IMG/VR virus record: IMGVR_UViG_3300024520_000226
Coordinates: 1 to 37,230 of that record
From: a virus
Reading direction: 5' to 3' (one strand)
Length of the DNA: 37,230 bases
The number at the start of each line of letters is the position of its first letter. The stretch's first letter is position 1. The notes under the pieces were generated by a model, which saw nothing but the letters and a program-made list of their open reading frames with translations, did no database searches and was not told the origin of the DNA. Both the position numbers and the translations under genes were made by a program. Shown here piece by piece: positions 1 through 31,037 of the stretch.

Positions 1-1
1 G

Positions 2-157
2 GGCGGCCGCGAGTACATTGGGGTGGCGTTCCTGCGGCCTTGGCAGGAGCAGGAACTGGCGGTAACGGGTGACGGCAGGGATCGGATGATGACGGTCGAG
101 TGGACGTTGCAGATGACTACCCCCAACGCCCACGGTCAGGTTGCGGACCTCAACTAG
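2..157 (+). CDS. Major capsid protein, C-terminal end (continues from right edge)
   Basis: This is the 3' end of the capsid gene that begins at 36267. The frame through the terminal repeat is the same as at the right end and continues past it for five codons (V A D L N) to a TAG at 155-157. Joined through the repeat, the complete protein is 326 residues. The residues encoded before base 15 differ from the right-end copy (E-Y-I-G here against E-N-I-G there) and come from the non-matching 14 bases, so they should not be trusted. Confidence 0.85.
   Translation, partial: GGREYIGVAFLRPWQEQELAVTGDGRDRMMTVEWTLQMTTPNAHGQVADLN
15..140. repeat. Terminal direct repeat, left copy
   Basis: These 126 bases are identical to 37105-37230. 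Both copies lie inside the major capsid gene and read in the same frame, so joining the ends restores one uninterrupted coding sequence. This indicates a circular map or a concatemer cut slightly longer than one genome. The 14 bases before the repeat do not match the corresponding bases at the right end and contain GCGGCCGC, so they may be a linker or chimeric end. Confidence 0.95.
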
Positions 158-173
158 CAAGTTCACCGGGTGG

Positions 174-229
174 CTGGGGTGGGGCTTTGGATGCCTCCAT
201 CCCTGCCCCAGTCGCCCACTCTGTTTTTT
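174..229 (+). terminator. Candidate terminator after the capsid gene
   Basis: Bases 174-184 (ctggggtgggg) can pair with 201-211 (ccctgccccag) in an 11-bp stem with two G-T pairs and a 16-base loop. A run of six T follows at 224-229, 12 bases after the stem, which is further than in a typical intrinsic terminator. It lies in the only gap between the capsid gene and the signal-peptide genes, a logical place to lower read-through. This is a weak call. Confidence 0.3.
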
Positions 230-246
230 AGGTAGGGAGCAAATCC

Positions 247-711
247 ATGAAGTTCGTCACACTTGTCCCAATGTTCGGGCTCCTTGCCTCAATGGTTGCG
301 GGCACGGCATACGCCAATTCAGGAACCAAGCAACTCACAAGAGAGCAGTCTCCGACAAGCACCCGGTCCTGCTCGATCGACTCCGGCGATACTTGCTACT
401 TCGGCAGCAACGCGGCAAATGCCGGTAACTCAATGACCTTCAGCGTGCCGAGCTACAACGCGATCGCCTGCTTCGACTCCGATACGGGTAGCGTCTCTGC
501 GGGTGCTGCGGTGGTGAAGTTCTGGAGGGTCTCCTCCAGTGGCCTGAAGACTGGGAGCTTTATCCCTTCAGCGGCTACCACCTCGACACTGTCCGGTCTC
601 CCGACCGACTGCTTTGTGATGCTCACCGGCTCATGGTGGATCGAAGTATCCACCGCACCGGCAGGCGCAGAAGTTTCTCTCGTAACAATCACGGGGAGTG
701 GATCTCAATGA
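247..711 (+). CDS. Secreted small beta-rich protein of unknown function
   Basis: The 154-residue product starts with a clear Sec signal peptide: a basic start (MKF), a hydrophobic core to about residue 21, and a likely cleavage after A-Y-A near residue 23. The mature part is rich in Ser, Thr, Gly and Val with scattered cysteines (SCS, DTCYF, IACF, DCF), which suggests a small beta fold stabilised by disulfides. No family is recognised. GGTAGGGAGC precedes the ATG as a ribosome site. It is the first of four consecutive signal-peptide genes placed between the capsid gene and the head-tail connector, and its stop overlaps the next start (ATGA at 708-711). A glycan-binding or decoration role with the sulfatase downstream is only an inference from position. 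Confidence 0.8.
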   Translation: MKFVTLVPMFGLLASMVAGTAYANSGTKQLTREQSPTSTRSCSIDSGDTCYFGSNAANAGNSMTFSVPSYNAIACFDSDTGSVSAGAAVVKFWRVSSSGLKTGSFIPSAATTSTLSGLPTDCFVMLTGSWWIEVSTAPAGAEVSLVTITGSGSQ

Positions 712-1766
712 GTCGAGTGATGAGCGTACTCTTCGCGGCAGTTCTGCTTTGTCTGCCATCCGTTTCCCTGGCCCAGGGCAATGCGTTCGGTGGTGGTGGT
801 GGTGGCCTTGGCACTTGCCCCGCCGCATCCGGCATCTGCGAAGACGCCACTGGTAACCTAGTGCTGAATGACAAAGGGGCAGGAGTCATAGCCATTCCAG
901 CAGACGCCACTGGATCTAATATCGTCCTCTCGGAGGGCGGAAACTTCGGAACGTCTACGGTGACATTGGGTCTTGGAGGTACGGATCTTGTCGGCTCCGT
1001 AAACTGCGTGCTTGATAACGGTGGTGGGATACCCGCCGGATGTGCATTGCTGGGGAATGTAGTTGGTGGGGGCGCGCCTATCACTTCACAGAATGCAGGG
1101 GGGGCACTTACAACCAATACTGCTGTTCTCAACTTCACAGGGTCTGGAGTGACTGCATCTAATGTTGGTACTTCTGTCACCATTGATGTGCCGGGGGCGT
1201 CTCTGGAGAGAACTGCCATCTCTGTGACTAATATCCCTACCGTGCTAAATCCAGCCGGGGACTTTGACGTCAGTGTCAGTACTTACCGAGACCCCCTGTC
1301 ATCAAACCCCACTGCCGTGGGTGGATTCCTAGCCATGATGCCTTTGGCTTTAGCTTCCACTTGGGGGGTGATGCCTCCCTACGCGCCCAACCCCGGGACT
1401 TGCGATAGTGTTGGGGTTACGCCGGGGGCTGGGGGTGGGCACATAGGATGCAGTAGCCCTATTGGGATAGCTCAAGTTGGGGGTGTCTCTACTATATGGG
1501 ACTTTACTTTGACTGCCGTAGCCGTTAGTGGGACTTCACAATCCAGTTGTACACTTACCGTCTTCCAAGATAACGCTATCAACGCGGGGTCTCTCACCCT
1601 CCCTGCTTCGACCCCTGCTCCATTCACAGTGTCCACAACTTTTGCGGTTACTACTACTGCCATTGCACCAAATTGGGATCACTATGGAGTATTTAGGCAG
1701 GGCGCGGCGTGTGGCACGACCGGCACGCTGGGACTCAGTGTAACGCTTACTGCGGTGGCGCGATAA
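708..1766 (+). CDS. Secreted Gly/Thr-rich fibre-like protein
   Basis: The 352-residue product begins with MSRVMSVLFAAVLLCLP and a probable signal peptidase site after S-L-A, followed by a run of six glycines. An upstream in-frame ATG at 633 would bury the signal peptide; the ATG at 708 overlaps the previous stop and is preferred. Residues about 60-190 are beta-repeat-like (GSGVTASNVGTSVTIDVPG resembles segments common in phage fibres and adhesins). The C-terminal half is a separate beta-rich region ending in LGLSVTLTAVAR. A phage virion protein with a Sec signal is unusual. It may be exported to the periplasm or cell surface and work with the sulfatase that follows. No specific family is assigned. 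It is coupled to the sulfatase through TAATG at 1764-1768. Confidence 0.75.
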   Translation: MSRVMSVLFAAVLLCLPSVSLAQGNAFGGGGGGLGTCPAASGICEDATGNLVLNDKGAGVIAIPADATGSNIVLSEGGNFGTSTVTLGLGGTDLVGSVNCVLDNGGGIPAGCALLGNVVGGGAPITSQNAGGALTTNTAVLNFTGSGVTASNVGTSVTIDVPGASLERTAISVTNIPTVLNPAGDFDVSVSTYRDPLSSNPTAVGGFLAMMPLALASTWGVMPPYAPNPGTCDSVGVTPGAGGGHIGCSSPIGIAQVGGVSTIWDFTLTAVAVSGTSQSSCTLTVFQDNAINAGSLTLPASTPAPFTVSTTFAVTTTAIAPNWDHYGVFRQGAACGTTGTLGLSVTLTAVAR

Positions 1767-3619
1767 TGATAAAAACTATACTGACACTCCTGATGGCGGT
1801 CTGCATTCCGCTATCGACGATAGCGAGTTCATTCTCAGGCGGTTCGGCAAGCTTTGTTACCAAGGCGTCCCGACAACCCAACATAATATTCATCATGTTG
1901 GATGAGGTAGGCAGGGAACAGTACCCACAGTTGCTGTCCCCGTATACGAACTCCGCAGGCCAGCTAAGTTTTACGGGCTCCGGTCTGGCTGACGGAAATA
2001 TTTACCCGCTCCAGACCGCTACCGACTTTCCTAATCTCAATTTGCTTCTGGAGAATGGTATCAATTTCACAGGGATGTGGTCTGGGACTTTTTGTGGCGC
2101 GACTCGATATATGCTCGCAACAGGTAACCCCGGTACGGGTGGTACAAACTTCGCTATAGACGGGCGCATCAGCCCAATGACGCACGTCAATCAAATGACT
2201 GACAGGGCTTACAAGATTGCACACTACGGGAAGAGCATGATGGGGTGTAATGCAGGGTTTATCCCCTGTTCCCCTGTGAGTTCTGGCACATCTATGAGTA
2301 TCGACAACACAAACGATGCCCCACCCGGGGGCGGGGTAGGGGGCGGGGGGTATGCGTGGAGAAATTTTGGACCGACTAGCCAGTCTGGTGTCATACGCCC
2401 ACTTCCCGTAAGTGACTCTCAGTTATGGAGTCCTACCGTTGATGGTGTGCCGAATACTCAGGTCATGTATCAGGATGAGTCTGGCTTGATCGATGTTAAG
2501 CGGCACGTCCAGTCAGACCAGTCCGCGTCTGGGCTTTCATTCTCTGAACTGAACTGGTTTGCAAACCAGACGGGTCAACCATTCATCATCACATACAGCC
2601 CGTTCACTGCTCACGGTGGTCAGGGCTCTTTCTGCACACAGCTTAGGACTGCCGCAAATGGGTACGTTCTTCCGACTACTGACGTGCAGGCGGGTGCTTA
2701 CCTTGACGAACCATTTCCACCACTCGGCCCAACCCCAAACTACGGACCCTCCACGTCCCCCAATTATACGGATGTACGGGACGATCCAGCGGCTGGCGGA
2801 CGAGGGTCATGGAGAATTTGGTATGACTGCCTAATGTCAGAGCTTCGGTGGGTTGACGATGAAATTGGTAAAATCCTCGCGTGGCTTGGACCGCATGGTC
2901 TGAACAACACGCTAATCGTGTTTACTGGTGACAACGGGTCACCCGCCGAACAGATAGCCAACCACACGGGCTTCTGGGGGCCTGGGGCCGCAACAGTGGT
3001 AGCCACTCCCGCAACGAGTTTGTTTGATATGTCTTTGTCAGAGGATGGTTTCGTCGCGGCAGATACCCCAGCCAACGGCGTCATTGTCTCAGGCAAGGGG
3101 GCATACGGCGAAACGGGCTTGAACGTACCATTCGTTATGGCATACGGAAGAATCCCCCAGCGACTAAGGGGGACCAACTCCGCTACTCGCCTGACGTTTG
3201 CCGATGTTGCAGAGACAACATTGCAGCTAATCACCCCTAACTCTGTGGGGACTGGATACTACCCCGAAGGCAGAGACTTCACTCCGCTCATCTACGGCAC
3301 AGCCGCAGATCAAGACACGTTGTTTGGTACTGATGTGACCGTAGCGTCTGATGGCACTAAGTCCCCACCTGGGGTCGCAGCGGCGATGAATCCCGATTCG
3401 TCAGGAAATATTTACAGGATGATGAAGCACCCGAGCGCAAGTAACCTCTGCGCCTATGTCCAAGACCTTAGCCGCGTTGATTTTGAAACCAACCTGAGAG
3501 GGGATACCACCCCCGAAGTTGTTGCGGCTATCGCTGACATGGAAGCGGCCATCGTCGCAGCGTTCCCGTTGACTCCAACAATGTGGGACGAACCCGCGAC
3601 GTGCTTACCGGCAATTTAA
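1766..3619 (+). CDS. Secreted sulfatase (alkaline phosphatase superfamily)
   Basis: The 617-residue product has a signal peptide (hydrophobic residues 4-20, cleavage around IAS-S) followed by a sulfatase-like domain. Visible motifs in order are PNIIFIMLDE (D46 metal ligand, with E47 where DD is usual), C110-G-A-T-R114 followed by MLATG (the formylglycine signature C-x-[PA]-x-R), G155-K156, H283, FTGDNG (D389 and N390), and GKGAYGETGLNVPF (K444). The His of the usual GKWHLG motif is a Met here. Sulfatases hydrolyse sulfate esters once the cysteine is converted to formylglycine. No maturase is encoded in this window, so the host would have to supply it. The substrate is unknown; a sulfated surface glycan is plausible. 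Two hand-counted 60-base samples (2101-2220) are about 50-53% G+C, against about 72% at 16141-16200. It is coupled by TAATG on both sides. Confidence 0.88.
   Translation: MIKTILTLLMAVCIPLSTIASSFSGGSASFVTKASRQPNIIFIMLDEVGREQYPQLLSPYTNSAGQLSFTGSGLADGNIYPLQTATDFPNLNLLLENGINFTGMWSGTFCGATRYMLATGNPGTGGTNFAIDGRISPMTHVNQMTDRAYKIAHYGKSMMGCNAGFIPCSPVSSGTSMSIDNTNDAPPGGGVGGGGYAWRNFGPTSQSGVIRPLPVSDSQLWSPTVDGVPNTQVMYQDESGLIDVKRHVQSDQSASGLSFSELNWFANQTGQPFIITYSPFTAHGGQGSFCTQLRTAANGYVLPTTDVQAGAYLDEPFPPLGPTPNYGPSTSPNYTDVRDDPAAGGRGSWRIWYDCLMSELRWVDDEIGKILAWLGPHGLNNTLIVFTGDNGSPAEQIANHTGFWGPGAATVVATPATSLFDMSLSEDGFVAADTPANGVIVSGKGAYGETGLNVPFVMAYGRIPQRLRGTNSATRLTFADVAETTLQLITPNSVGTGYYPEGRDFTPLIYGTAADQDTLFGTDVTVASDGTKSPPGVAAAMNPDSSGNIYRMMKHPSASNLCAYVQDLSRVDFETNLRGDTTPEVVAAIADMEAAIVAAFPLTPTMWDEPATCLPAI
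2327..2350 (+). other. Putative G-quadruplex motif inside the sulfatase gene
   Basis: Four G runs of 5, 4, 5 and 6 bases (2327-2331, 2333-2336, 2339-2343, 2345-2350) are separated by loops of 1, 2 and 1 base. This fits the strict intramolecular G-quadruplex pattern on the coding strand. It encodes a Pro-Gly-Gly loop (GGGVGGGG) between structured parts of the sulfatase. Whether it folds or affects translation is unknown. Confidence 0.55.
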
Positions 3620-3915
3620 TGACGAGGCTTCTGCTCATAGCTCTGCTCTTACTACCGGCAACAGTCTCGGCAAGTGAGTCATCACAAGCCCACTCGTTCT
3701 GCATGGCAATGATGAGAGAAGGCCCCGCACAAGCCCTCAACGAACGCTTCAAACCCCTCACTCGCAACGAAGAGGAATGGGACCGACTGGTGAGTGTGGT
3801 TCTGGAAACATGGCATGAGGCGTGTTTCAGCCTGCTTGGAGTGCCTGACAATCGTGTAGAGGACGATCAGATGCCCTGGAAGAGTCCGGGGATGATTTGT
3901 GAGGTGGGGACATGA
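3619..3915 (+). CDS. Small secreted protein following the sulfatase
   Basis: The 98-residue product starts MTRLLLIALLLLPATVSAS, a textbook signal peptide with cleavage after V-S-A. The mature part is about 80 residues, mainly helical and charged, with three cysteines (SFCMAM, HEACFSL, MICEVG). No family is recognised. The ATG at 3619 overlaps the sulfatase stop as TAATG and is preferred over an in-frame upstream start at 3583 that would mask the signal peptide. It is the last of the four signal-peptide genes and overlaps the next gene by four bases (ATGA). A partner or chaperone of the sulfatase is possible but unsupported beyond adjacency. Confidence 0.75.
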   Translation: MTRLLLIALLLLPATVSASESSQAHSFCMAMMREGPAQALNERFKPLTRNEEEWDRLVSVVLETWHEACFSLLGVPDNRVEDDQMPWKSPGMICEVGT

Positions 3916-4259
3916 GCCAGTGGCAGACGCTCAAGGACGATCCGGGCGATCCGATGAAGCGCAAGATGAAGTTCGATGATATGGACAAGACGCTGACCAT
4001 CGTTTCCGAGCAGGACAACATCGGCGAGATCTTGACCATGAATAAAGCGTTTCTCAACGCTGAGCGGCAGTCCACCGCACTCTGGAACGGGGGCGAGTAT
4101 GTGAAGGTTGCCGAGATCCCTTACGAGATCCTCGAAAAGTGGTCGATCGAGGAGAACATCAACATCTGGCGAGGGAACGATGAGGACAAGGCCGCGATCG
4201 CCCGTAAGCTGAACGATGGCGACTACGCAAACTTCCGCACCGCACCAGGGAAAATCTGA
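3912..4259 (+). CDS. Conserved small phage protein before the adaptor gene
   Basis: The 115-residue soluble protein is highly charged. It ends with a stretch (LNDGDYANFRTAPGKI) that resembles C-termini of small proteins found beside connector genes in marine podoviruses. Residues about 35-70 (DNIGEILTMNKAF, ALWNGGEYVKVAEIPYEILEKW) form the likely core. There is no signal peptide or membrane segment, in contrast to the four preceding genes, so the normal virion morphogenesis region resumes here. Its stop overlaps the adaptor start by one base. A role in head completion or as a minor virion protein is inferred from position only. Confidence 0.7.
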   Translation: MSQWQTLKDDPGDPMKRKMKFDDMDKTLTIVSEQDNIGEILTMNKAFLNAERQSTALWNGGEYVKVAEIPYEILEKWSIEENINIWRGNDEDKAAIARKLNDGDYANFRTAPGKI

Positions 4260-4909
4260 TGGCTCAGATCACGAACTACTCGACCCTCAAGACAAACGTC
4301 CAGACCTACATGGCCTACGACGATATCGGTAATATGTTCGACACATGGCTGGGCCTTGCGGAGTCGAAGTTCCGGCGCGATATCCGCATCCGAGAGATGG
4401 AGGCCCAGGAGGACTTCACACTCGCTGCCAGTTCCTCCCAGGCACTGCCCACTGGGTTCCTTGAGATCATAGACCTCTACGAGACGGGATCGACGGGCGG
4501 AACGCTTGAGTATCTGCCACCGCAGAAGTTCTGGTCGCTCGAAAGTTCTAGGAGCGGGACCGGGCAGCCGGGATTTTACACGGTGCTGGGCACAGACCTA
4601 AAGTTCGCCCCCCTGACCGACTCGGCCACTCGGACCTACACGATGAACTACTTCAAAGAGTTCGACGGTCTCAACACTTGGCCCTATGTGACCAACACCC
4701 TGCTCACTATAGCCCCGGACGTGTACTTGTACGGGGTTCTGTTTGAGGCTCAACCGTATCTAGCAGACGCTGCGCGCTCTGCGGAATTTGAGGGACTGTA
4801 TCGCAAAGCTATTGATGGCCTTCACGCTGCGGACGTTAGGGCGCGGCATCGACCGCGTGGGCGTATGTACGCGGAGGGCGTTACTTCGGATGGAGCGTTT
4901 CGTATCTAG
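4259..4909 (+). CDS. Head-tail adaptor protein (SU10/P22 gp4-like)
   Basis: The 216-residue product has the layout of podovirus adaptors. It has an N-terminal helical part with AESKFRRDIRIREMEAQEDF at residues about 37-56, a short beta insertion (LPTGFLEIIDLYE, YLPPQKFW), and a C-terminal helical part ending in a basic tail (RARHRPRGRM). In this family the adaptor ring binds below the portal and carries the tail nozzle. The L...E..FRRD.R...ME pattern and the order capsid, adaptor, nozzle support the assignment. The start ATG overlaps the previous TGA, and the nozzle gene starts directly after the TAG. Confidence 0.8.
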   Translation: MAQITNYSTLKTNVQTYMAYDDIGNMFDTWLGLAESKFRRDIRIREMEAQEDFTLAASSSQALPTGFLEIIDLYETGSTGGTLEYLPPQKFWSLESSRSGTGQPGFYTVLGTDLKFAPLTDSATRTYTMNYFKEFDGLNTWPYVTNTLLTIAPDVYLYGVLFEAQPYLADAARSAEFEGLYRKAIDGLHAADVRARHRPRGRMYAEGVTSDGAFRI

Positions 4910-6595
4910 ATGCCGATGATGAAACTCGGAGAGTGGCTACCAGACCAGAACCCCATTGCCTTGCCTGGGCTTTCGCAGGCGGACAACGTGTACCCCACGC
5001 TGACAGGCTACAGATCATTCAATGGCCGGAACCCGGTGCCGGGTGTATCTGCGATCCCATTCAGGGCGCGTGGGGCAATGTCAGGCGACACCCAGGGCGG
5101 CACAAAGTTCACCATCGTGGGCAGCGCAGAGGATGGCGGTGCTGGTCGAGGGGTGAACATCCTATGGAGTACGGGGCAGTGGATTGAGATCAAACCGATC
5201 AGCACCCAACTCACTAGCATGGATTCCGAATCGAAGATGCAGTTTGCCGTCTACGGTGACCGGATCATCCTAGTTGGACGCAACATCGTCCCCTGCTCCG
5301 TCGATACGACTACCGACCCCAACGCATCAACCAACGTGATGGCTACCCTCTCAGCCGATGCGTCTAAGGCGGATGTGTGCGCGACCTTCAAGGAGTTCCT
5401 GATTCTGGGGAACATCGAGGGGCAAGGTGTCAACACATCCGCCATAGGGACGCAGCGTGCGGGCCTTCACTGGTCATCAATCGGAGACCCTACCTCTTGG
5501 CCTGAAATAGGCATCGCCGCAGCGATCAATGCACAGTCTGATTTTCAGGTGCTTGACGGTGATGGGGGCGAGATCACTGCGATCGTACCGGCAGGCGAGT
5601 GGTGCGCGATCTTCCGCGAGCGTCAGGTTTGGCGGATGGACTATGTGGGCGGCTCCAACTTCTTCTCCTTCAGGAAGATCGACTCCAATCGCGGCTGCAA
5701 CATACCCAACGCGGCAGTTGCCGTGGGTGGAGTGGTCTACTTCCCAAGCTCCGAGGGATTCCTAGCCTGCAACGGGAGTACATTGACCCCGGTAGGCGAG
5801 TCCAAGGTTGATCGTTACTGGCGAGAGGGAACGTCGAGCGCATCAAAACACCTATCGACCGCAGTCTACAACGCTGAAACAGAATCGATCTACTGGACGA
5901 TGGCGCAGGGCGGGAACACGCCCACAACGGTACTCGCCTATCGGCCCAACGTGGGGAAGTGGTTCCAACTGACGGGCCTGACCTGTGAGTCGATACTCGA
6001 CAGTGTGAGCAGTGTGATTGGCGGCAACCTCGACGCGGCACCCTACGCATCGTACAAGATGGACAACGCCACAGGCCCAGATCCGACAATCCTACAGGAC
6101 GCGAACCTCGACAGTCTGGGTGTCCGGTCTGGGGACCGATCCCTGGCCGCAATCGATAGCAGTGGGGTTCTCCAAATCTACAACGATACGGTGGACACGC
6201 TGACCGCAGAACTGACTACCGGCGACTTTGAGATGCCTGGGGGACAGCGGGCGATGCTCCGATGGATTCGGCCAATCTTTGCCGGGGGTGGCACGTTCTC
6301 TGGCAGTGCTTCCGGCAGCCTGAACTCAAACGAGTACCCGCCGATGCAGCCACTGACTTGGATGGACTCGACGCGGGTTCTTTCCTCTCAGTCATCAGAA
6401 ACAGTCTTTGAAAGCTTTGGCATTCCAGACACGTTTGGTGTCGGTTTTCCGACCGGGACATGGTACGACCAAGTGCGCCGGGTGGGCGGGCGGTACATAC
6501 GGGCGCAGTTTGTGAGCAACTCGGCAATGTCCAAGTTCACGGGATTCGATTTCGAGGTCCGCTCACCTTCGGCACCATCGAGGACAACCCGATGA
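4910..6595 (+). CDS. Tail nozzle / hub protein (P22 gp10-like)
   Basis: The 561-residue product is beta-rich throughout. It opens with GEWLPDQNPIALPGLSQADN followed by VYPTLTGYRSF, typical of podovirus nozzle proteins. A central block (residues about 225-305) contains AIFRERQVWRMDYVGG, FSFRKID and VYFPSSEGFLACNG, ending GESKVDRYW. This recurring pattern belongs to beta-propeller nozzle proteins that sit under the adaptor and guide DNA exit. Length fits the family. An alternative start three codons downstream (ATG AAA CTC) would barely change the protein. The gene lies directly after the adaptor gene and overlaps the short fibre gene by ATGA. Confidence 0.82.
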   Translation: MPMMKLGEWLPDQNPIALPGLSQADNVYPTLTGYRSFNGRNPVPGVSAIPFRARGAMSGDTQGGTKFTIVGSAEDGGAGRGVNILWSTGQWIEIKPISTQLTSMDSESKMQFAVYGDRIILVGRNIVPCSVDTTTDPNASTNVMATLSADASKADVCATFKEFLILGNIEGQGVNTSAIGTQRAGLHWSSIGDPTSWPEIGIAAAINAQSDFQVLDGDGGEITAIVPAGEWCAIFRERQVWRMDYVGGSNFFSFRKIDSNRGCNIPNAAVAVGGVVYFPSSEGFLACNGSTLTPVGESKVDRYWREGTSSASKHLSTAVYNAETESIYWTMAQGGNTPTTVLAYRPNVGKWFQLTGLTCESILDSVSSVIGGNLDAAPYASYKMDNATGPDPTILQDANLDSLGVRSGDRSLAAIDSSGVLQIYNDTVDTLTAELTTGDFEMPGGQRAMLRWIRPIFAGGGTFSGSASGSLNSNEYPPMQPLTWMDSTRVLSSQSSETVFESFGIPDTFGVGFPTGTWYDQVRRVGGRYIRAQFVSNSAMSKFTGFDFEVRSPSAPSRTTR

Positions 6596-7365
6596 GCCGG
6601 GGGATCGTAGAGAAGCCGCCCGCAGACCTAGCGGACGAACGTGAACACAGGATTATGATCGCGGAGTACCTCCGACAGGAGGATCTGCCCTACATGGCGG
6701 CGTTCCCAACAGCGGGCACGCACGTCCAGGGCGACCGGGTGATGAACAGCGCACCCGCAGCGAGTGGGTACATCGGTTGGGTCTGCGTCACATCCGGCTC
6801 GCCCGGTGCGTGGAAAGGTTTCGGGAGTATAGCCGACCCGGCTGGCTACCTCTGTGCAAGCGGCGCATGGGTGGCGGGTGCGCTGGGTGGCACACTGGGT
6901 GCTGGTGCGAACTTCATGCCCATCACGTCGATCACGGGGTGGACGCTTCATGCTCCTAACAGTGGGTGGACTGAAACCAACAGCGAGTTTGAGTACACAG
7001 GCATAGACCCAGCGTCAGGGCCGAAGACTTTTCTTGTGCAGTTCACAATGTCACTCCAGTTCTTTGCGACCGGAACAGGGTCTGCGACCGTTGCTCTAGT
7101 CAATAAAATCACCAAGAACACAGGTTCAGGCTACGCGGATGTGCCTGGGTCTTTTGAGATTTCAGAAATCGACAACTACACAACTGGCTTCGGTGCCTAT
7201 TTTCATTTCCACAGTGTGTCCGGCAGTTGCATCGTTTCCGTGGACGCGGGGGACACGATTGCATTCAACTTCGGCACCTTCGCCTGGGGCGCGTACATAC
7301 CCGTTGCGTATGCGACCACGGCAGGCACGGAGGGCGCGACAATGACGATCACGCCGATAGGATGA
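6592..7365 (+). CDS. Short tail fibre / receptor-binding-like protein
   Basis: The 257-residue product has an N-terminal region (residues 1-50) that may anchor to the tail, followed by TAGTHVQGDRVMNSAPAASG and GWVCVTSGSPGAWKGFG. This segment is common in phage spike and fibre proteins before the receptor-binding part. The C-terminal about 140 residues are a Thr/Gly-rich beta domain (FLVQFTMSLQFFATGTG, YFHFHSVSGSCIVSVDAGD), consistent with a jelly-roll tip. The ATG at 6592 overlaps the nozzle stop; the longer in-frame opening from 6460 is a shadow of the nozzle gene. The placement after the nozzle gene agrees with a tail appendage. Confidence 0.7.
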   Translation: MSRGIVEKPPADLADEREHRIMIAEYLRQEDLPYMAAFPTAGTHVQGDRVMNSAPAASGYIGWVCVTSGSPGAWKGFGSIADPAGYLCASGAWVAGALGGTLGAGANFMPITSITGWTLHAPNSGWTETNSEFEYTGIDPASGPKTFLVQFTMSLQFFATGTGSATVALVNKITKNTGSGYADVPGSFEISEIDNYTTGFGAYFHFHSVSGSCIVSVDAGDTIAFNFGTFAWGAYIPVAYATTAGTEGATMTITPIG

Positions 7366-9330: not shown

Positions 9331-10495
9331 CATTGAGCGAGGTCTTGGAGACGTAGCCGCGATCCCTGGGAAGATACTGGGCTCAGTGGCTGGCCCGATC
9401 GCGGGCAGTCTCGGAGGTGGTCAGCAGGGCGGGGGGTCTGGGATGCGGAACCTCTTCCGATCTCTCCCTGCCGCCTATGCGATGGGCCGAGGAAACTACC
9501 AGGGCGCTGCGATGATGCAGGCCCAGCAGTACCAGCGGCAGCAGCAAGAGGATCAGCAGAGGCGTGGGGTGGCGTTTCAGCGTGACTATCGGCAAGAGTT
9601 TCCAAACAACGAGTTCGACCCGAGCAACCGCCAGCACATTGGAAGAATGCATGGAATAGCCCAACGCAATTACCCTGGACGGGCTTTGTCTGTGATGCAG
9701 CAAATTATGGATATGTACACGCAGTCGGTCCAGCAGACCCACGCACCCGTCAAGGCCCTCGACGCTCAGGGGAACCCGATCTACGTCAGTCGCGAGGATT
9801 CCTTCGGCATGACCCCGGCTCCCACTTCACCGGGAACCAGCGTAAACGTAAGCACGGGCGCTGGCGCGTATGCGAAACTCGGCGATGAGATGGCGAAGGC
9901 TGTAATGGAAGGGCGCGCTGATGCAGTGGGTGCCCAGTCTGGTCTTCGCGGCCTACTGGAGGCCAGAAATATCCTTGACTCTGGCATAGTCACCGGCAGC
10001 GGGGCCAACTTCATCACCGACTTCGGAAACCTACTGGTCAGTAGGCTTGGCATGGAGGATCAGGGGAACGCCGTCGCAAATACCCAAGCCTTCGCAGCGA
10101 CGATGGGAGTCCAAGTTGGGCAGATTATCAAGCAATTTGGTTCTGGTACTGGTCTATCAGATGCGGATAGGGAATATGCGAAGGAGATAGTCGGAGGCAA
10201 CATCGCTGTAAGCGAAAACGCTATTCGCAAACTCATGGACATAAACGAGCGGGCGTTCAGGAACGTCATCTCTGCTCACAACAAGCGTGCGGCACAGGTC
10301 TCGGCGAACCAACCAGAAGGGCAAAGACTTCTGTACGACCTCGCGGTCGAAATGCCAGGGGCCTCGACTGGGTCTGCACCTGGGCCTGCGGGAACTCCCC
10401 AAGCCGCCGCACCAACTGAGAGCGGATTCCCTGGGTTTAAACCAACTGGCGAGACAGTCACCATCGACGGCGTGGTGTACGAGGTGGGCGAGTAG
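9317..10495 (+). CDS. Probable internal ejection protein
   Basis: The 392-residue protein starts with a hydrophobic Gly/Ala-rich segment (IPGKILGSVAGPIAGSLGGG), then a Gln/Arg-rich helix (residues about 65-95). A C-terminal helical region contains FGSGTGLSDADREYAKEIVGG and ENAIRKLMDINERAFRNVISAHN. The 'S/T-DADRE' plus long helix pattern recurs in podovirus internal virion proteins that are ejected with DNA. GGGAGGTG lies about nine bases before the ATG at 9317, so this start is preferred over the in-frame 9284. It overlaps the previous gene by 14 bases and the next one by TAGTG. Confidence 0.65.
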   Translation: MAWGDIERGLGDVAAIPGKILGSVAGPIAGSLGGGQQGGGSGMRNLFRSLPAAYAMGRGNYQGAAMMQAQQYQRQQQEDQQRRGVAFQRDYRQEFPNNEFDPSNRQHIGRMHGIAQRNYPGRALSVMQQIMDMYTQSVQQTHAPVKALDAQGNPIYVSREDSFGMTPAPTSPGTSVNVSTGAGAYAKLGDEMAKAVMEGRADAVGAQSGLRGLLEARNILDSGIVTGSGANFITDFGNLLVSRLGMEDQGNAVANTQAFAATMGVQVGQIIKQFGSGTGLSDADREYAKEIVGGNIAVSENAIRKLMDINERAFRNVISAHNKRAAQVSANQPEGQRLLYDLAVEMPGASTGSAPGPAGTPQAAAPTESGFPGFKPTGETVTIDGVVYEVGE

Positions 10496-13017
10496 TGGCT
10501 ACACAGTACCCTCAAAAACTTTACAGCCCAGACGGTCGAAGCTTTTTGCGCTTCGGCCCCGGCGAGCCCGCACGTCCCGTTCGGCGCAGGGCTGGGGAAC
10601 CCGGTCGAACTGAGTCTGAGTTGACTGAGGCATCACTCGTTGCTGGTCCCACTGGCGTTAAGGAATCGATGAAGGACAGCGCGGCCTCGCTCATGGCGGG
10701 TGGTGGCGACATTGCCGAGGGGATGGCTTCCCTCCCAGGACTCGCCATGCAGGGAATGATGTACGGGGCAGAGAGACTAGCGACCGAGGGCAGCAACCTA
10801 GAGGGGAACATCAGAGGCATCCGGCAAACCTTCGCCGACTCGCCCGACCCCCTCCAGCAGGGCGCGAAGTTTCTGACGGGCGGAATCTCGGACTACGAAT
10901 CCTACACGGGAATGGGCGACCTTTCGCGGACTGTAGGAAGAGCCGGGTTTGGGGCCGCTATGCCTCTGGGCGGCTTGCAGATAGCATCGCGTGGGAAGAA
11001 CCTCCTCTCGCCACTCTTGAAGTCCGCACCCATCACAACCCGAGCCGCAGTCCCTGTCTTTTCCGGTGCGCTCGCCAGCGAATACGGGGGAGAGGCGGCG
11101 ATGGAATACGGTGCTGAAGAGGTGGCACCCGGCGAGACCCGTTTCGGCACTGGTGGGCAACTCCTCGCTGGCGTGGCCGGTGGTGCCCTTCCGGGTGGCA
11201 TAGTGGAGGGGACTCTGGGAACAGCGGGAAGAGCCGCATCGAGACTCAGCAGCGACTCCAACGTCAGTGATGCCCTTCGCAAGGCGCTTGAAGAACTACA
11301 GGCCAGCCACCCCCAGCAGGGAGCGATGGTCGCGAAAACCCTTGAAGACTTGCAGAGGCGGGGACACAAACTCGATGCCGAGACGTTGATGCTCGCGAAG
11401 CATCAGGCCGGTTCGCGTCTTGGACGCCCATGGAGTCAGGCCGAAATCGACGCGGAGCGTGCCTACAACGGTATCGAGGCCACGCGGATGCAGAACGAGA
11501 AAGAGATATGGGACCAAGGCACCCAGGTTCTGAAGCGTGCAATAGCGAGGACCGAGGCCACGGGTGACCCTGGCCCGCTCACCCTCGCGCTTCTCCAAGC
11601 GGGGACCGTGGAAAATGCCGATGACTTGGCGGGGCAGTCGTATATGGCCCTCGCAAGATCCGTAGCAAACAAGACCGATGGAAGGCTTGGCGAACAGGCA
11701 CTCGCGCACAGAAGGGCCACGCTAGAAGGTGCGGATAGGTTCATCGACACAAGCAAGCAGGCCGACGATGTGGCGAGCCAAGTCGAGGCGCACCGATCCC
11801 GGCGACTGCGGGCCGCTTCCGATGCATACCAAAACAACGAAGCCTACAACAACCCAGAAAACGTAATCTCGTTCTTTGATTTTGAGAGCAAACTATACGC
11901 GAAGCTCGACACCATCGACGCGGGATCGGCTGCCATTCTCCGAAAGAAGATGGAATCTCCTGACAGTTTCCCGGTGATAACGGAACTCCTGAGAAGGTCG
12001 AACGGGACGGGCAAGATGCCCATCAAGGCATTCGATCAAGAGCGATCGTCGATCGTTCGCGCCATTCGTGAGGGCAACTCGGCCAACATGACCCCGGCAG
12101 AGTTGAAGGCTAACGATATTCTGATCGAAGTCCTCGATGAGTACATCGATGCAGCCGTGGCGGCTACTGGGGACTTGCCTCTTTCACAGATGCGCGCTTC
12201 GTACAAGAGCGTCCACGATGACCTTTACCCGGCGAGACGCCAGCCTGGGCCGAAGGCTTCCGATCAGGCGAAGATCCAGTACCACGTTGCAAAGGCTCTC
12301 ACAGAATCCAGAGCGGGACGGCAGGGGACCGAAACATCGGGCGAGGCGATGATACGCGCCCTTCTTAATAACCCGCCCGCAATGCGTGAGGGTGGTTCTC
12401 TCGATGCCACGGTGAGGCAACTACGCAAGGTTCTGGGTCACGATGAGGGACTCGGTGCCATCAAGACGGCTATCTACGAGGACATGATAAAGAAGGCCCT
12501 GGAGGCGAGTACAGCGGGTGCCAGCCACGGGGCGCTGCGGTCCTTGAAGGGGCTCCGCAAACACAACAATCAGACAGCCTTCTACCGTCAGCTTATTGGA
12601 CACAAGGAATACGACGAAGTCCTCGACTACTTGCAGGATCTTCGGGTGGCACAGATAGCGAGGGTAGGATCATCCGCCGAGGCACTGGCTACGGGCAGCA
12701 ACCTAGGCCCGAGGCTTGGTCTTACCGAGAAGGCTCTCGACACAGGGGTAGACCTCGCAGTCGCTGCCGCTGAACCCACTCTTGGTGGTGCGAGGTATCT
12801 CGCCCGTAAGTTTGCGGAGTTGGCCGATGGCAAGGCTGGGAGGCAAGCGACAGCGTCAACGGAACTCGTAGGCGAGGCTATTGGCAGCCCCGCAATACAG
12901 AGGATGTTGGAAACCTTGCCAGAGGAAACCATTCAGAAACTTATGTTCTTTGAGAGTGCCCGTTCGGGGCTAGGCAGCGGTGCCGTTCGCGGCGCATATG
13001 GGACAGGTAGGGAATAG
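10495..13017 (+). CDS. Large internal virion / DNA ejection protein
   Basis: The 840-residue protein starts with GTG, which overlaps the previous TAG. Residues about 60-235 contain several glycine/alanine-rich hydrophobic stretches (SLMAGGGDIAEGMASLPGLAMQG, GTGGQLLAGVAGGALPGGIVEG) that could insert into a membrane. Residues about 260-830 are mostly long charged helices. This arrangement is typical of large podovirus internal proteins (analogous to T7 gp15/gp16 or P22 gp16/gp20) that build a channel for genome entry. No lytic transglycosylase motif is visible. The assignment rests on size, composition and location between ejection genes and the tail fibre gene. Confidence 0.65.
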   Translation: MATQYPQKLYSPDGRSFLRFGPGEPARPVRRRAGEPGRTESELTEASLVAGPTGVKESMKDSAASLMAGGGDIAEGMASLPGLAMQGMMYGAERLATEGSNLEGNIRGIRQTFADSPDPLQQGAKFLTGGISDYESYTGMGDLSRTVGRAGFGAAMPLGGLQIASRGKNLLSPLLKSAPITTRAAVPVFSGALASEYGGEAAMEYGAEEVAPGETRFGTGGQLLAGVAGGALPGGIVEGTLGTAGRAASRLSSDSNVSDALRKALEELQASHPQQGAMVAKTLEDLQRRGHKLDAETLMLAKHQAGSRLGRPWSQAEIDAERAYNGIEATRMQNEKEIWDQGTQVLKRAIARTEATGDPGPLTLALLQAGTVENADDLAGQSYMALARSVANKTDGRLGEQALAHRRATLEGADRFIDTSKQADDVASQVEAHRSRRLRAASDAYQNNEAYNNPENVISFFDFESKLYAKLDTIDAGSAAILRKKMESPDSFPVITELLRRSNGTGKMPIKAFDQERSSIVRAIREGNSANMTPAELKANDILIEVLDEYIDAAVAATGDLPLSQMRASYKSVHDDLYPARRQPGPKASDQAKIQYHVAKALTESRAGRQGTETSGEAMIRALLNNPPAMREGGSLDATVRQLRKVLGHDEGLGAIKTAIYEDMIKKALEASTAGASHGALRSLKGLRKHNNQTAFYRQLIGHKEYDEVLDYLQDLRVAQIARVGSSAEALATGSNLGPRLGLTEKALDTGVDLAVAAAEPTLGGARYLARKFAELADGKAGRQATASTELVGEAIGSPAIQRMLETLPEETIQKLMFFESARSGLGSGAVRGAYGTGRE

Positions 13018-14399: not shown

Positions 14400-14639
14400 G
14401 TGAACCTCTTCAAACTGGACACGGGGCTTCCGTACTATATCAATCACACACTGATTGGGATCGCTATCGGACTCCTGTTCCAGAATATGTTTGTCGGTGC
14501 TTCGTTCTACGCGGGCAGGGAACTCCGCGACTGGGAGAAGTTGGGACACTTCGATCACAGAGGTTTCTGGTGGCCCGTTGCTGCCTGCGTTTTGATAGAA
14601 ACCCTGTGCATGGCTGGGGATTGTTTTGGCTTCCCATGA
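14400..14639 (+). CDS. Small membrane protein, candidate holin
   Basis: The 79-residue product starts with GTG immediately after the fibre stop (TAAGTG). Two hydrophobic segments are visible: about residues 14-37 (HTLIGIAIGLLFQNMFVGASFY) and 56-73 (GFWWPVAACVLIETLCMAG). A charged loop, AGRELRDWEKLGHFDHRG, lies between them. The short length, two membrane segments and position just ahead of a coiled-coil membrane protein and an endolysin fit a holin or holin-like lysis protein. Similar GRE-containing small membrane proteins occur near lysis genes in other phages. Function is inferred. Confidence 0.6.
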   Translation: MNLFKLDTGLPYYINHTLIGIAIGLLFQNMFVGASFYAGRELRDWEKLGHFDHRGFWWPVAACVLIETLCMAGDCFGFP

Positions 14640-14949
14640 TTCACTCGCTGATATTTGGCAGTACCTAGTCGCGGGTGCTTCGTCGATGGGGATATTTGTC
14701 GGCTCGCACTTGCGGACAAAGGACCGGGTCTCACGGCTAGAGGTCAAGAGCCAGTTCATTGAGTCGAAGGGCGAGCTTCTCGATGAGACCCATGATGCGG
14801 TTCTGAAACTTGAGGGGTCAGTCAAACTCTTGGAGTCGGATCTGAGAAACTCATCGGAGGCGTTCAGCAGGACTATGCAGGACAACGCTAACTCCCTGGA
14901 TGAGATCAATGCCACACTGACCGAGATCACTTCGGAGTTCAAACGATGA
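14626..14949 (+). CDS. Membrane-anchored coiled-coil lysis-region protein
   Basis: The 107-residue protein probably starts at TTG 14626 (GGGGA five bases upstream); an ATG at 14686 would remove most of the membrane segment. A hydrophobic stretch at residues about 10-28 (DIWQYLVAGASSMGIFVG) is followed by a long heptad-patterned helix (residues 30-107: RVSRLEVKSQFIESKGELLD, LKLEGSVKLLESDL, LDEINATLTEITSEF). This layout suits a spanin-like or XhlA-like protein tethered in the inner membrane. It overlaps the previous gene by 14 bases and the endolysin by ATGA. Confidence 0.6.
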   Translation: MASHDSLADIWQYLVAGASSMGIFVGSHLRTKDRVSRLEVKSQFIESKGELLDETHDAVLKLEGSVKLLESDLRNSSEAFSRTMQDNANSLDEINATLTEITSEFKR

Positions 14950-15302
14950 GCGACGATAGGCAACCGATGACCCCCACCGAATTCGATTGGAAGATCCGCA
15001 GACTTCTCCACATCTGCCCCTGGCTGAGTCAGACCTCTGGCTGGCGCAGCGAGGAACACAACGCCGAGGTGGGTGGCTCGCCGCAATCGAAGCACCGGGT
15101 GGGGATGGCGATCGATTTCATTTCGAGCGACTACGGTCTAGAGCAGGCCAATGAAACGGCGAGGGGGCTTGGGTTCTGGACAGAGATCCACGGCGAGCCC
15201 TCGCACCTTCACATTCAAGGACTACCCCCTGGCTCGATCGAGGAGATATCAATCGACTGGCGGGGCAAATATGGGAGCGGCAACAATGGACACGATCAGT
15301 AA
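14946..15302 (+). CDS. Endolysin, peptidase M15 family
   Basis: The 118-residue product matches the M15 D-Ala-D-Ala/L-Ala-D-Glu peptidase fold. SGWRSEEHNAEVGGSPQSKH and RVGMAIDF at residues 31-58 contain the zinc ligands H50 and D57 (S-x-H-x-x-G-x-A-x-D pattern). SHLHIQG at 86-92 supplies the last ligand (H87 or H89). These enzymes cut peptidoglycan cross-links. There is no signal peptide or cell-wall-binding domain, as expected for a compact holin-dependent endolysin of a Gram-negative phage. It sits between the membrane lysis proteins, overlapping the previous one by ATGA. Confidence 0.9.
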   Translation: MSDDRQPMTPTEFDWKIRRLLHICPWLSQTSGWRSEEHNAEVGGSPQSKHRVGMAIDFISSDYGLEQANETARGLGFWTEIHGEPSHLHIQGLPPGSIEEISIDWRGKYGSGNNGHDQ

Positions 15303-27269: not shown

Positions 27270-30200
27270 TTGAGCCTTGAAGACGCCCTGAGACACGCGC
27301 AACAGGCGGGCCGAGAACGCGCTCGCGGTCTGAGCGTTCAGAAGCCGACCCTCGATCAGTTGACGAACTTCCCGCAGTGGGTTGGTCGCAACACCGGCGA
27401 GGGTGTGCCCCAGTGGCGCGGCCTGGGCGGCGGCATCATGGGCGCACTCCGGCGCAGTCACGCCGTTGGTGGATTGCAGGCAGCGGACGTAATGCCTCCG
27501 CAGGACGCAGTCATGGCACCGCTCCCCCCGGAATACTCGTTCACAGGCGGCAGGAACGCCGTGGAGGGCGTCCCCGAATCCGATGCACGCCTAGCTGCAT
27601 GGGAGAAAGATTACATCGACAGGGGCGGCTCATGGGGGGGTGCGCGGATCGGTGAGTTTCTTGCGCCCGATATCCTCGATGTTATCCCGTTCGGCAAGGC
27701 GGCTGGATTTGTCGCTGGAGTGGCACCGAAGGTGGGCGGCGCGTTGGCATCGATTCCGCTGGGAGCAATCCCGCGTGGAGGCAAGCGCACGCTTAATGAA
27801 CTGGACGTTAAGACCCTGGCCCGCGCCTCCGAGGGTGCCGAGGAGATAAAACTAACGGAGGATGGGCTTCGTGAGTTGGCGAATTGGGACAGGGGCGATA
27901 CGCATTCAGTGGTTCAACCCGATGGCAGTATCCGCTACGAGCATTCCGGGTGGCGCGCTGTAGATGTCGCGCAGGACGGGGCCACGATCCCTAGCAAAGA
28001 ATACGCGGAGCAGCTACACGGCTTGCATACAGGGGAGTTGCGCGCCGAGGACGTTTCTCCCAAAGCGTTGCGAGCGTGGGAGGATGCCGGGTTACTGGTG
28101 CGTAAGCCTCTACGAGGCACATCCCCCACCCCCCGCGCCGAAGCCAGCGCAGGCGTCCGTGGCCCGCTCGTTTTCGAGAAGGGCAGCGGGTATGTGGAGA
28201 ACCCAAAGAAGTTTACCGTTGATGATGTGGTTTCAGATATAGATTCCACCAACAGGAAGGGCGAAGCGGAAAGAGTTAAAGACGAGTTTGACTACGATTC
28301 CACCGAAGATGTGATAGTCCTGTACCACTCTGGGGATAAGAGTATCGCGGATGATGTCCATTTCGGCACAGAACCCAATCGTGGCGAATGGGTGCGAGAG
28401 GTTCTGGACGGTGCAACGGATGATCAAGGGGCTATTGACGCGATTGCCCGAGAGCCCGCCGTTACATTTTTGTCTGACGCACCCGATTGGGTGGTGTCAA
28501 AGGTCGCCAGGAAGCTAGGCAAGAATGATAAGGACGTGACTCTGGAGGATGTTAGGGAGCATGGTCACCTCGCGGTCTTCAAGGTAGACGCTGACGCCGA
28601 TGTGGTTCGTGCCATTGACCCTGACTCTGAAGGTTTCACAAACGCCACCGGGCGGGAGAGCTACGAGCGTTGGCACGAAACCCCTCTCTATAGCGAGGGT
28701 GATGTTTACACGGGCGAGGGGCGACTATCCGAAACCCCCTTCGGTGTAGAGCGTGGCGACTACTTCACAACGGAGTCAGTGAGCCCAGAATACACCCTTA
28801 CCGGCGACGGGCTTGTCGAGTTTTTGCAGCGCAAAGGTGTGCCACTTCCAGAAGCCCCCACCCCCCGCGCCGCAGCACCAGCGACTCCTCCCACACCAGT
28901 GAGCGCGGCCAATGCACCAGTGGCCCCCTACAAGGGAAAGTTCACTGATGAGGTCGAGGATCTGCGGACGATGGACAGCCATGCAGATGCTTATGCCGTA
29001 GCCAAAGGGCAGCCACATCTTCGGAGGGTATCTGCGGACGGCACGGGCGACTTTGTAGGGGCCCCGCTAGGTGTCGATACGGCTGCCAGGGTTCGCACTA
29101 TGCGCGACGATTACGACAAGCTTGTAGAACTCGGAGCGGAGCGCGGTGCCGACTGGTACAAGCGGATGGGCGAAAACGCCACCCGTCTTGCTGGAAGAAA
29201 TCCGAAGAGGACCGAAAGATTCACCAAAGAAAATGCGATGACCTCGCCGCAGGCAACGCCACGATCGAATCTCGGATTTCAGTTGCAGGGGCACAACGCT
29301 CTGGTATCGGACTCGCCTCGCGACATAGTCCACACCGGCAGGCAGGCACGCCAAATGGCGGACTACCATGCTGGTGGACCCGATGGGCTGAGTCTCAAGA
29401 CCGGGCCATTCTCACAAGCGATGGACCCCAACAGGCCGCCCACGATTGGGGGCACCCATGACATTTGGGACGGCAGGGCGATGGGGTACAGGTCCGTAGG
29501 AAAGGACGGGAAGCTGCGACCGTGGGATGCTGGATTCTCGGAAAACCAGCACCGCTTCCTCGACTATGAGTTGGTTCTCGCCGTGCAACGTGCAAACGAT
29601 AAGAAGCTACTCGGTCGCAGCGATTGGGACGCTGACCAGATACAGGCAGCATCTTGGGCCGCAGTCGGCGGCAAGGACCGACTAGTGGGCGATGCATCCG
29701 GCAAGTTGTATGGCGGTGACCTTAACAGGGCGATGGACGCGATGAGCGACACCGACTTCCCCCCTGACTTTGCGGTCAATGCAACGGCAGAGAAGATCCC
29801 CTCCGCTTCGGGAAAACACTTGCCCGGAATGGCAGGCCAGTCGCTGGACGCCCGCAGGAGGTACACCAACGAAGCGTCTTGGATAGATGAGGACGGTAGG
29901 GACATACTCTACGATGCGGCAGACCGATACCAACTTCCCAGCGAAGAGTACACGGGCGCTTCTCTGAACCCAAACACCGGCATTCTGGAACACAATCCAG
30001 CCAACCAATCCAGACCCCTGATGGCTTTCGATACCGTAGAGAACGAACCCAAATTCTTCGGGCAGACAGTGGGCAGGCACGGGGAACTGGCTGGGCACGA
30101 TCAGGATGCGCTCAACTCAGTAGAGAAGTTCCGCAGCATGATGGACGCGCAGGAGGCTGGAGCGTGGAACCAGTTCACTCCAGTCGGTCAGCGTGGGGTG

Positions 30201-31037
30201 CGCGGTTCGGACGCCAACACTATCAACATATCGGCACCTTCGACGCTGGGGCTTCCGCACAGGCTGCAAGGTGTCGATAAGATGGGCCAGCAAAAGCTTG
30301 GGGCACTCCACAAGATTGCCGCCGATCCCAAGTACGGTTACGACAACAAAGGGGCGCGCATATCAATCCAGAATGCTGGGAACACGTCCCTCGTAGATTT
30401 CGGGGCCACGTCAAACATCGATGACTTCCTGGGTGACCCATCCCAGTGGTTCGATCAGTTCGGGCAGCCACTTTCCCATGAAGCGTTGAACAGCAAGATC
30501 AAGAAGATGGGCGCTGCGAACGCCAGGGCTCGCAAGAAGAGCATCGGTGGTCTCTCACAGGATCTTTCGGATGCTGGACTGCGGGTCGATGACATAAGCC
30601 CAGGTCTGACCACCAGCGGATACATAGACAACTCCGCTGCCACATCGAAATACCCAAGGAATGCCGCTTTCATCCCGCCCGAAGTGGCGCGCACACTGGG
30701 AGAGATGGGCGATCACCTCAAGGATATACCCACCAACGGTCAGGGAACTAGGGAACTGCTGGAGCAGATCGAAAGTACGCCTGCAATAATGCGGCAACTT
30801 GACTCCCCTGCTATTAGGCAGAAGGTTCTAGATAAGATTGACCGGGACGAGAACTGGGCAGCCAGTACCGGGATGCGGACCAGCGCAGAGCTACAGAACC
30901 TTCGCAGAATATTTGCAGAAGGCGGGTTCAAGGCACTCCGCGCAGCAGTGGACGCAGGGAAGATTGCCCTGCCGGTAGCTGCGGCCGTGCTTGGTCTCAG
31001 TATCGGTGAAACACAGGACCGACAAAGTGCCGCTTAG
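27270..31037 (+). CDS. Giant polyvalent virion protein with ART-like segment
   Basis: The 1255-residue product starts at TTG 27270 (AGGT upstream). Recognisable regions follow. Residues about 345-530 (VLYHSGDKSI, AVTFLSDAPDWVVSKVARKLG, GHLAVFKVDADADVVRAIDP, TPFGVERGDYFTTESVSPEYTLTG) have the 'YH.G..FLSD.P..A..V' layout of ADP-ribosyltransferase-like folds. Residues about 705-790 (QAMDPNRPPTIGGTHDIWDG, DYELVLAVQRAND, QIQAASWA) resemble a domain in other large phage proteins. A hydrophobic C-terminal segment lies at about 1228-1246 (KIALPVAAAVLGLSIG). Pro-rich linkers separate blocks. It is probably packaged and injected. ART activity is unproven. Confidence 0.65.
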   Translation: MSLEDALRHAQQAGRERARGLSVQKPTLDQLTNFPQWVGRNTGEGVPQWRGLGGGIMGALRRSHAVGGLQAADVMPPQDAVMAPLPPEYSFTGGRNAVEGVPESDARLAAWEKDYIDRGGSWGGARIGEFLAPDILDVIPFGKAAGFVAGVAPKVGGALASIPLGAIPRGGKRTLNELDVKTLARASEGAEEIKLTEDGLRELANWDRGDTHSVVQPDGSIRYEHSGWRAVDVAQDGATIPSKEYAEQLHGLHTGELRAEDVSPKALRAWEDAGLLVRKPLRGTSPTPRAEASAGVRGPLVFEKGSGYVENPKKFTVDDVVSDIDSTNRKGEAERVKDEFDYDSTEDVIVLYHSGDKSIADDVHFGTEPNRGEWVREVLDGATDDQGAIDAIAREPAVTFLSDAPDWVVSKVARKLGKNDKDVTLEDVREHGHLAVFKVDADADVVRAIDPDSEGFTNATGRESYERWHETPLYSEGDVYTGEGRLSETPFGVERGDYFTTESVSPEYTLTGDGLVEFLQRKGVPLPEAPTPRAAAPATPPTPVSAANAPVAPYKGKFTDEVEDLRTMDSHADAYAVAKGQPHLRRVSADGTGDFVGAPLGVDTAARVRTMRDDYDKLVELGAERGADWYKRMGENATRLAGRNPKRTERFTKENAMTSPQATPRSNLGFQLQGHNALVSDSPRDIVHTGRQARQMADYHAGGPDGLSLKTGPFSQAMDPNRPPTIGGTHDIWDGRAMGYRSVGKDGKLRPWDAGFSENQHRFLDYELVLAVQRANDKKLLGRSDWDADQIQAASWAAVGGKDRLVGDASGKLYGGDLNRAMDAMSDTDFPPDFAVNATAEKIPSASGKHLPGMAGQSLDARRRYTNEASWIDEDGRDILYDAADRYQLPSEEYTGASLNPNTGILEHNPANQSRPLMAFDTVENEPKFFGQTVGRHGELAGHDQDALNSVEKFRSMMDAQEAGAWNQFTPVGQRGVRGSDANTINISAPSTLGLPHRLQGVDKMGQQKLGALHKIAADPKYGYDNKGARISIQNAGNTSLVDFGATSNIDDFLGDPSQWFDQFGQPLSHEALNSKIKKMGAANARARKKSIGGLSQDLSDAGLRVDDISPGLTTSGYIDNSAATSKYPRNAAFIPPEVARTLGEMGDHLKDIPTNGQGTRELLEQIESTPAIMRQLDSPAIRQKVLDKIDRDENWAASTGMRTSAELQNLRRIFAEGGFKALRAAVDAGKIALPVAAAVLGLSIGETQDRQSAA
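28123..28872 (+). repeat. 18-bp direct repeat at two linkers of the giant protein
   Basis: The same 18 bases (five C, A, six C, GCGCCG) occur at 28123-28140 and 28855-28872, 732 bases apart, a multiple of three. Both encode PTPRA within Pro/Ala-rich linkers. They bound the ART-like segment, as if that block were a cassette exchanged or inserted between linkers. Confidence 0.85.

Follow-up and report, generated by a model that had tools for sequence, protein, structure and literature searches.

A secreted sulfatase in a conserved four-gene cassette of podovirus-like phages

Introduction

Why does a phage carry, between its capsid gene and its tail genes, a gene for a sulfatase that appears destined for export? 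The question arises from the 37,230-base virus record studied here over its whole length (hereafter the window). An earlier note, drawn from the sequence alone, had described this locus as a secreted formylglycine sulfatase encoded in a podovirus late operon. That description stands; the note had missed that the gene belongs to a cassette of four secreted proteins, and it had over-read a methionine found in place of a histidine. The enzyme class is already known, and it is the phage setting that is new. We first describe the genome, the protein and its active site, then the cassette and its variation among phages, and finally the role that it may play in infection.

Genome and late region

The ends of the record overlap by more than 100 bases past the first 16 or so (read by eye at 1-120 and 37100-37230), which makes a complete, circularly permuted genome probable. 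Outside this overlap lie the first ~16 bases (GGGCGGCCGC...), as if a linker or an assembly artefact headed the record. Across the joined ends, also read by eye, the capsid gene stops just upstream of the cassette. The genes follow the order terminase, portal, scaffold, capsid, sulfatase cassette and tail-type genes, which agrees with the proposed late operon of a podovirus. By portal and terminase, the nearest named phages are mostly podoviruses, a morphology that we take to be theirs. No sigma-70-like promoter was found in 1-4300, a result that is uninformative for phage promoters. The genes considered below are as follows.

247-711, + strand: SP1, a 154-aa secreted protein, with a signal peptide followed by a probable beta-sandwich (hydropathy scan, homologues)
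708-1766, + strand: SP2, a 352-aa secreted protein, a possible specificity partner (signal peptide, ATGA overlap with SP1)
1766-3619, + strand: sulfatase gene (PF00884, fold, TAATG junctions with SP2 and SP4)
1766-1825, + strand: signal peptide of the sulfatase, about residues 1-20 (hydropathy scan and sequence)
3619-3915, + strand: SP4, secreted, 98 aa, better conserved than any other cassette member (signal peptide, identity comparison)
14626-14949, + strand: coiled-coil membrane-type protein (homologues directly after SP4 in contigs L024, L025 and L071)
14946-15302, + strand: peptidase M15, endolysin-like (PF08291, 2.5e-9; 55% identical homologue just after the cassette in L024)

The sulfatase and its fold

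The sulfatase reading frame occupies exactly 1766-3619 (+) and encodes 617 aa with no internal stop. A hydropathy scan and visual inspection both show the features of a Sec-type signal peptide at the N-terminus, MIKTILTLLMAVCIPLSTIA-S. PF00884 (Pfam Sulfatase) matches residues 38-488 with 53.7 bits for a cut-off of 25 (E 2.7e-14), and a profile built on five viral members retrieved 33 PDB sequences at E <=0.01, every one of them named sulfatase. Thus, the intact frame, the signal peptide and the profile search that had been suggested as a check all bear out the proposal of a full-length secreted sulfatase. A chance open reading frame, a pseudogene and host contamination were rejected, as the profile, the fold, the conserved residues and the flanking phage genes all count against them.

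Structure prediction, the other check suggested, also recovered a sulfatase (alkaline-phosphatase superfamily) fold. The AlphaFold2 model made from 35 aligned sequences is of moderate confidence (pLDDT 61, pTM 0.70), with a well predicted core and large, unreliable insertions at 162-264, 285-347 and 399-440. The five viral sequences alone gave a poor model (pLDDT 35), and the addition of 30 cellular relatives made the core usable. Foldseek matches the model to the kappa-carrageenan sulfatase 6prm (E 9.6e-16), and the best Z score, 29.3, is with the S1_25 sulfatase module 6hr5 (rmsd 3.4 over 316 residues). Since PbgA/YejM is also found in the same list of structural matches, the fold alone is no proof of sulfatase chemistry, and the argument is carried by the formylglycine motif and the catalytic residues.

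Active site

The active site was examined in an alignment of 35 sequences, made up of the window sulfatase, four other viral members and 30 cellular sulfatases. D46, C110, R114, K156, H283, D389, N390 and K444 are invariant. The motifs read in the protein are D46-E47, C110-G-A-T-R114, G155-K156-S-M-M-G160, D389-N390-G391 and G443-K444-G...E-T-G..V-P-F, so that the formylglycine signature, the DNG motif and the GKG...ETG..VPF motif named in the earlier note are all present.

1901-1906, + strand: calcium-ligand pair D46-E47 (alignment columns)
2093-2107, + strand: formylglycine motif C110-G-A-T-R114 (Cys and Arg invariant in 35 sequences)
2231-2239, + strand: invariant K156 to M158, the latter being His, Gly or Gln in cellular relatives (alignment)
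2612-2614, + strand: invariant H283 (alignment)
2930-2935, + strand: calcium ligands D389-N390 (alignment)
3095-3097, + strand: invariant K444 of GKG...ETG..VPF (alignment)

The catalytic Arg, Lys, His and Lys, corresponding to R114, K156, H283 and K444, are all retained. The published formylglycine consensus is (C/S)XPXR (PMC8746622). CGATR fits the form C/S-x-P/A-x-R, the third position being Pro in 27 and Ala in 3 of the 30 cellular relatives.

Two positions had been put forward as deviations of the metal site, and only one of them belongs there. Most sulfatases carry a D-D pair at the first calcium-ligand positions. Here D46, D389 and N390 are kept and the second Asp is replaced by Glu (E47), as against Asp in 30/30 cellular relatives; the carboxylate is retained and the deviation appears mild. 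E47 is present in the window phage and its sister, and the three other viral members have Asp. The second position, M158, aligns with the His of GKWHLG, which we take to lie on the substrate side in arylsulfatases and not to be a metal ligand. As 14/30 cellular relatives also lack His in this column (H 16, G 10, Q 4), M158 is no sign of inactivity and is not diagnostic.

The viral alleles vary around the same core. Their formylglycine motifs read CGATR, CAATR, CKASR, CKVSR, CKMTR, CQPTR, CVATR, CTTSR and CTPSR, and the Cys and Arg are retained in 9/9 distinct alleles covering the motif, at allele identities down to ~27%, which argues for selected catalysis. In L024, L025 and L072, the third position is V, M or T and not P/A, and conversion to formylglycine may be lowered there. 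Taken together, these features make it very probable that the 617-aa protein is a genuine catalytic sulfatase. No formylglycine-generating enzyme (FGE) is encoded in the window, and the activity therefore depends on the host. FGE occurs in Pseudoalteromonas phages (PMC10232697).

A cassette of four secreted proteins

SP1, SP2, the sulfatase and SP4 are encoded by genes that overlap through ATGA or TAATG junctions. Signal peptides were called from visual inspection and a simple hydropathy scan. Among the 38 genes scanned, only these four show a classical signal peptide plus a cleavage-like site, and the product of 14400-14639 has a transmembrane-like segment. SP1 has no Pfam, PHROG or phage-record match, and SP4 no Pfam or phage-record match. 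In SP2, a Gly-rich N-terminus is conserved among cassettes and the C-terminus is swapped in a sister phage.

Viral contigs were scanned with the sulfatase and with SP4. Seeding used short exact patterns, so the search is non-exhaustive, and several contigs are fragments. A scan with the window sulfatase alone gave zero matches, despite sisters at ~49% identity, because of this limited seeding. An alignment of 7 SP2 sequences was too diverse for scanning, and a subset alignment added one contig. Altogether, the sulfatase occurs in 12 contigs of uncultured viruses including the window, as 10 distinct alleles on several podovirus-like backbones.

Wherever sequence is available, every sulfatase found is followed by SP4, and every SP4 found with enough upstream sequence is preceded by the sulfatase. 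The full SP1-SP2-sulfatase-SP4 set is present in the window, both sisters, L024, L025, L069 and L071; L073 carries SP2-sulfatase-SP4, and L085 carries SP1-SP2 on a contig that stops before the sulfatase. Homologues of SP1 are found at the corresponding position in the sisters, L024, L025, L069, L071 and L085. Placement within the late region differs between backbones: in the window the cassette comes after the capsid gene, in L025 after a terminase and in L024 after a giant ejection-type protein, with a homologue of the endolysin-like peptidase adjoining it there. A small protein (MGTTTFxGP...), possibly a capsid decoration protein, is encoded just before SP1 in L069 (2681-3112) and L085 (4825-5301). 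Mean pairwise identity is 41% for the sulfatase and 64% for SP4, which is higher in 44/45 pairs.

Allele exchange between sister phages

For most structural proteins, the window and its sister phage G004 share 92-98% identity, and the range for most structural genes among sister phages is 94-97%; the sulfatases share only ~49%. At the nucleotide level, identity falls from ~95-96% to 47-70% over ~1000 to 3640 and then returns to ~95%, with sharp edges.

1000-3640, + strand: exchanged block, comprising the C-terminus of SP2 and the whole sulfatase (identity drop relative to the sister)

Other loci differ between the two phages. In the tail-fibre-like gene 6592-7365, the first 80 residues are matched in G004 and the C-terminal part is missing there. 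Two large proteins of no known family, encoded at 10495-13017 and 27270-31037, are strongly divergent or replaced in the sister and are probably ejected internal virion proteins. The capsid protein (36267-37229) diverges over part of its length and is only 69% identical to that of the sister, with neighbouring proteins above 95%. Exchange is hence common to the cassette and to other, mostly envelope-facing genes, and is not unique to the sulfatase locus. A block swapped alongside a tail-fibre end and ejection-type proteins is what would be expected of a trait facing the host envelope.

Occurrence outside these phages

The claim that such a gene lies outside standard phage gene sets agrees with our searches: neither the window sulfatase nor that of L024 has a match in 50,697 phage records, and the L024 protein has none in plasmids. 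With a cellular sulfatase as query, 34 phage records match. Many of these are faecal contigs that lack annotation or assemblies of prophage type, in which host contamination is possible; the Campylobacter phages A11a and A18a (MG065691, MG065686) match a cellular sulfatase weakly (23%).

A pattern-limited scan of 84,980 bacterial and archaeal species returned only ordinary cellular sulfatases, at 19-25% identity over the alignment. No phage-type sulfatase was among them, and no SP4 was seen in ~1,190 genomes of three phyla; both scans were run without a positive control and do not demonstrate absence. In the literature, of which coverage was partial, no such secreted sulfatase cassette was found, which is weak evidence of novelty.

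Relationships with known systems

The closest known systems are the S1 carbohydrate sulfatases (S1_25 6hr5; the S1_19 carrageenan sulfatases 6prm and 6bia; S1_16; PyuS 7stt). They share with the window protein PF00884, the fold, the formylglycine motif, three of the four calcium-site residues, the catalytic Arg/Lys/His residues and a signal peptide. In contrast, identity to the S1 structural matches is only ~12-21%, and the window protein has Glu at a calcium ligand, Met in the GKWHLG His column, long insertions and a phage cassette context. Among viral structures in BFVD, the sole matches at E <0.001 are giant-virus proteins. These sulfatase-fold proteins (Terrestrivirus, Tetraselmis virus 1, Yasminevirus, Satyrvirus) differ in belonging to giant viruses of eukaryotes and in being 10-13% identical, and to our knowledge they are not part of a cassette.

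Two other systems resemble the cassette in their presumed action. Phage capsule depolymerases and tailspikes also act on surface polysaccharides and have alleles swapped between close relatives. However, depolymerases are tail-attached and cleave the backbone, whereas the window sulfatase has a signal peptide and would remove sulfate only. With a signal peptide and no tail-attachment domain among its Pfam or PHROG matches, the protein is not assigned to the tailspikes or depolymerases. Llp of phage T5 is exported to the periplasm, as is predicted here, and changes receptor use; it is, however, a small receptor-blocking lipoprotein with a protein as its target, whereas the window protein is an enzyme whose substrate is presumably a glycan (PMC9586334).

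Possible roles in infection

The reading that we prefer, and to which we give about an even chance, is that a host-matured sulfatase desulfates a host surface glycan around lysis, leading to receptor destruction or progeny release. Synthesis of the sulfatase would fall late in infection, alongside that of three further exported proteins. A host FGE or anSME would convert Cys110 into formylglycine, and the enzyme would leave the cytoplasm via Sec. From the periplasm, or once the cell lyses, it would gain access to the cell surface and its surroundings. Outer-surface glycans are within reach of a periplasmic sulfatase only at lysis or by further export. There, sulfate esters would be stripped from the host's own sulfated surface polysaccharide, and SP2, with its conserved N-terminus and exchanged C-terminus, would probably target or present the sulfatase to this glycan. 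The benefit would most likely be destruction of the receptor or capsule, so that progeny are freed without sticking to debris or infected cells; the cassette would thus be a phage counterpart of viral receptor-destroying enzymes. In favour of this reading are the constant company of exported partners, the exchange of the sulfatase together with the SP2 C-terminus and, in L024, the neighbouring endolysin-like peptidase. The identity of the enzyme is well supported; maturation by the host, export, substrate, host, role of SP2, timing and benefit are what we infer.

The same exported enzyme could act earlier, by altering the surface of the living infected cell and blocking adsorption of further phages. 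Exported receptor-blocking phage proteins are known (T5 Llp, PMC9586334), and allele exchange is compatible with a match to receptors. This superinfection exclusion is nevertheless unlikely, as the late-operon position suggests late and not early expression and nothing indicates passage across the outer membrane.

Another use of desulfation would be nutritional, with environmental or host polysaccharide providing the infected cell with sulfate or carbon for virus production. Indeed, the cellular relatives are nutritional polysaccharide sulfatases, and a sulfatase is named in passing among viral metabolic genes (PMC10029852). However, no gene for sulfur assimilation, sulfur uptake or glycan uptake was recognised among the window reading frames scanned, many of which match no family; the sulfatase lies late, with virion genes, in a fixed partnership with SP1, SP2 and SP4; and an allele swap between near-identical phages is unexpected for a housekeeping nutrition gene. 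Such a role seems quite improbable. As far as sequence can tell, the conserved secreted cassette and the swap together with SP2 favour host-surface glycans over sulfate scavenging.

About equally improbable is an aid to entry, in which cassette proteins, once exported or at lysis, would join particles and, in the following round of infection, strip sulfate from the capsule in front of the tail. In the window, L069 and L085, the cassette has capsid and tail genes as neighbours, and the conserved-N, variable-C pattern of SP2 recalls fibres; yet all members carry signal peptides, which conflicts with virion assembly in the cytoplasm, and no tail-attachment domain was recognised.

Finally, it is very unlikely that the protein is another formylglycine-dependent hydrolase, acting on phosphate or phosphonate esters, or a degenerate sulfatase retained for binding: the fold is common to other hydrolases and transferases such as PbgA/YejM, PyuS, whose fold is close, hydrolyses phosphate as well as sulfate esters (PMC8746622), and E47 and M158 differ from the common residues, but the close profile matches are all sulfatases, and catalytic residues invariant through alleles of 27-50% identity make loss of catalysis unlikely.

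Implications

Returning to desulfation of the host surface around lysis, we tentatively suggest that SP1-SP2-sulfatase-SP4 could be an undescribed secreted and exchangeable receptor-destroying module, in which a fibre-like SP2 would aim the sulfatase at strain-specific sulfated surface glycans. Sulfatases are central to the turnover of sulfated glycans, and our searches of deposited phage genomes returned none of this type. The divergent viral sulfatases form a set whose specificities are open to testing. The cassette, with alleles swapped between near-identical phages, suggests that phages contend with bacteria over the sulfation of bacterial surface glycans and, if this is true, desulfation would be a step in the arms race between podoviruses and their hosts.
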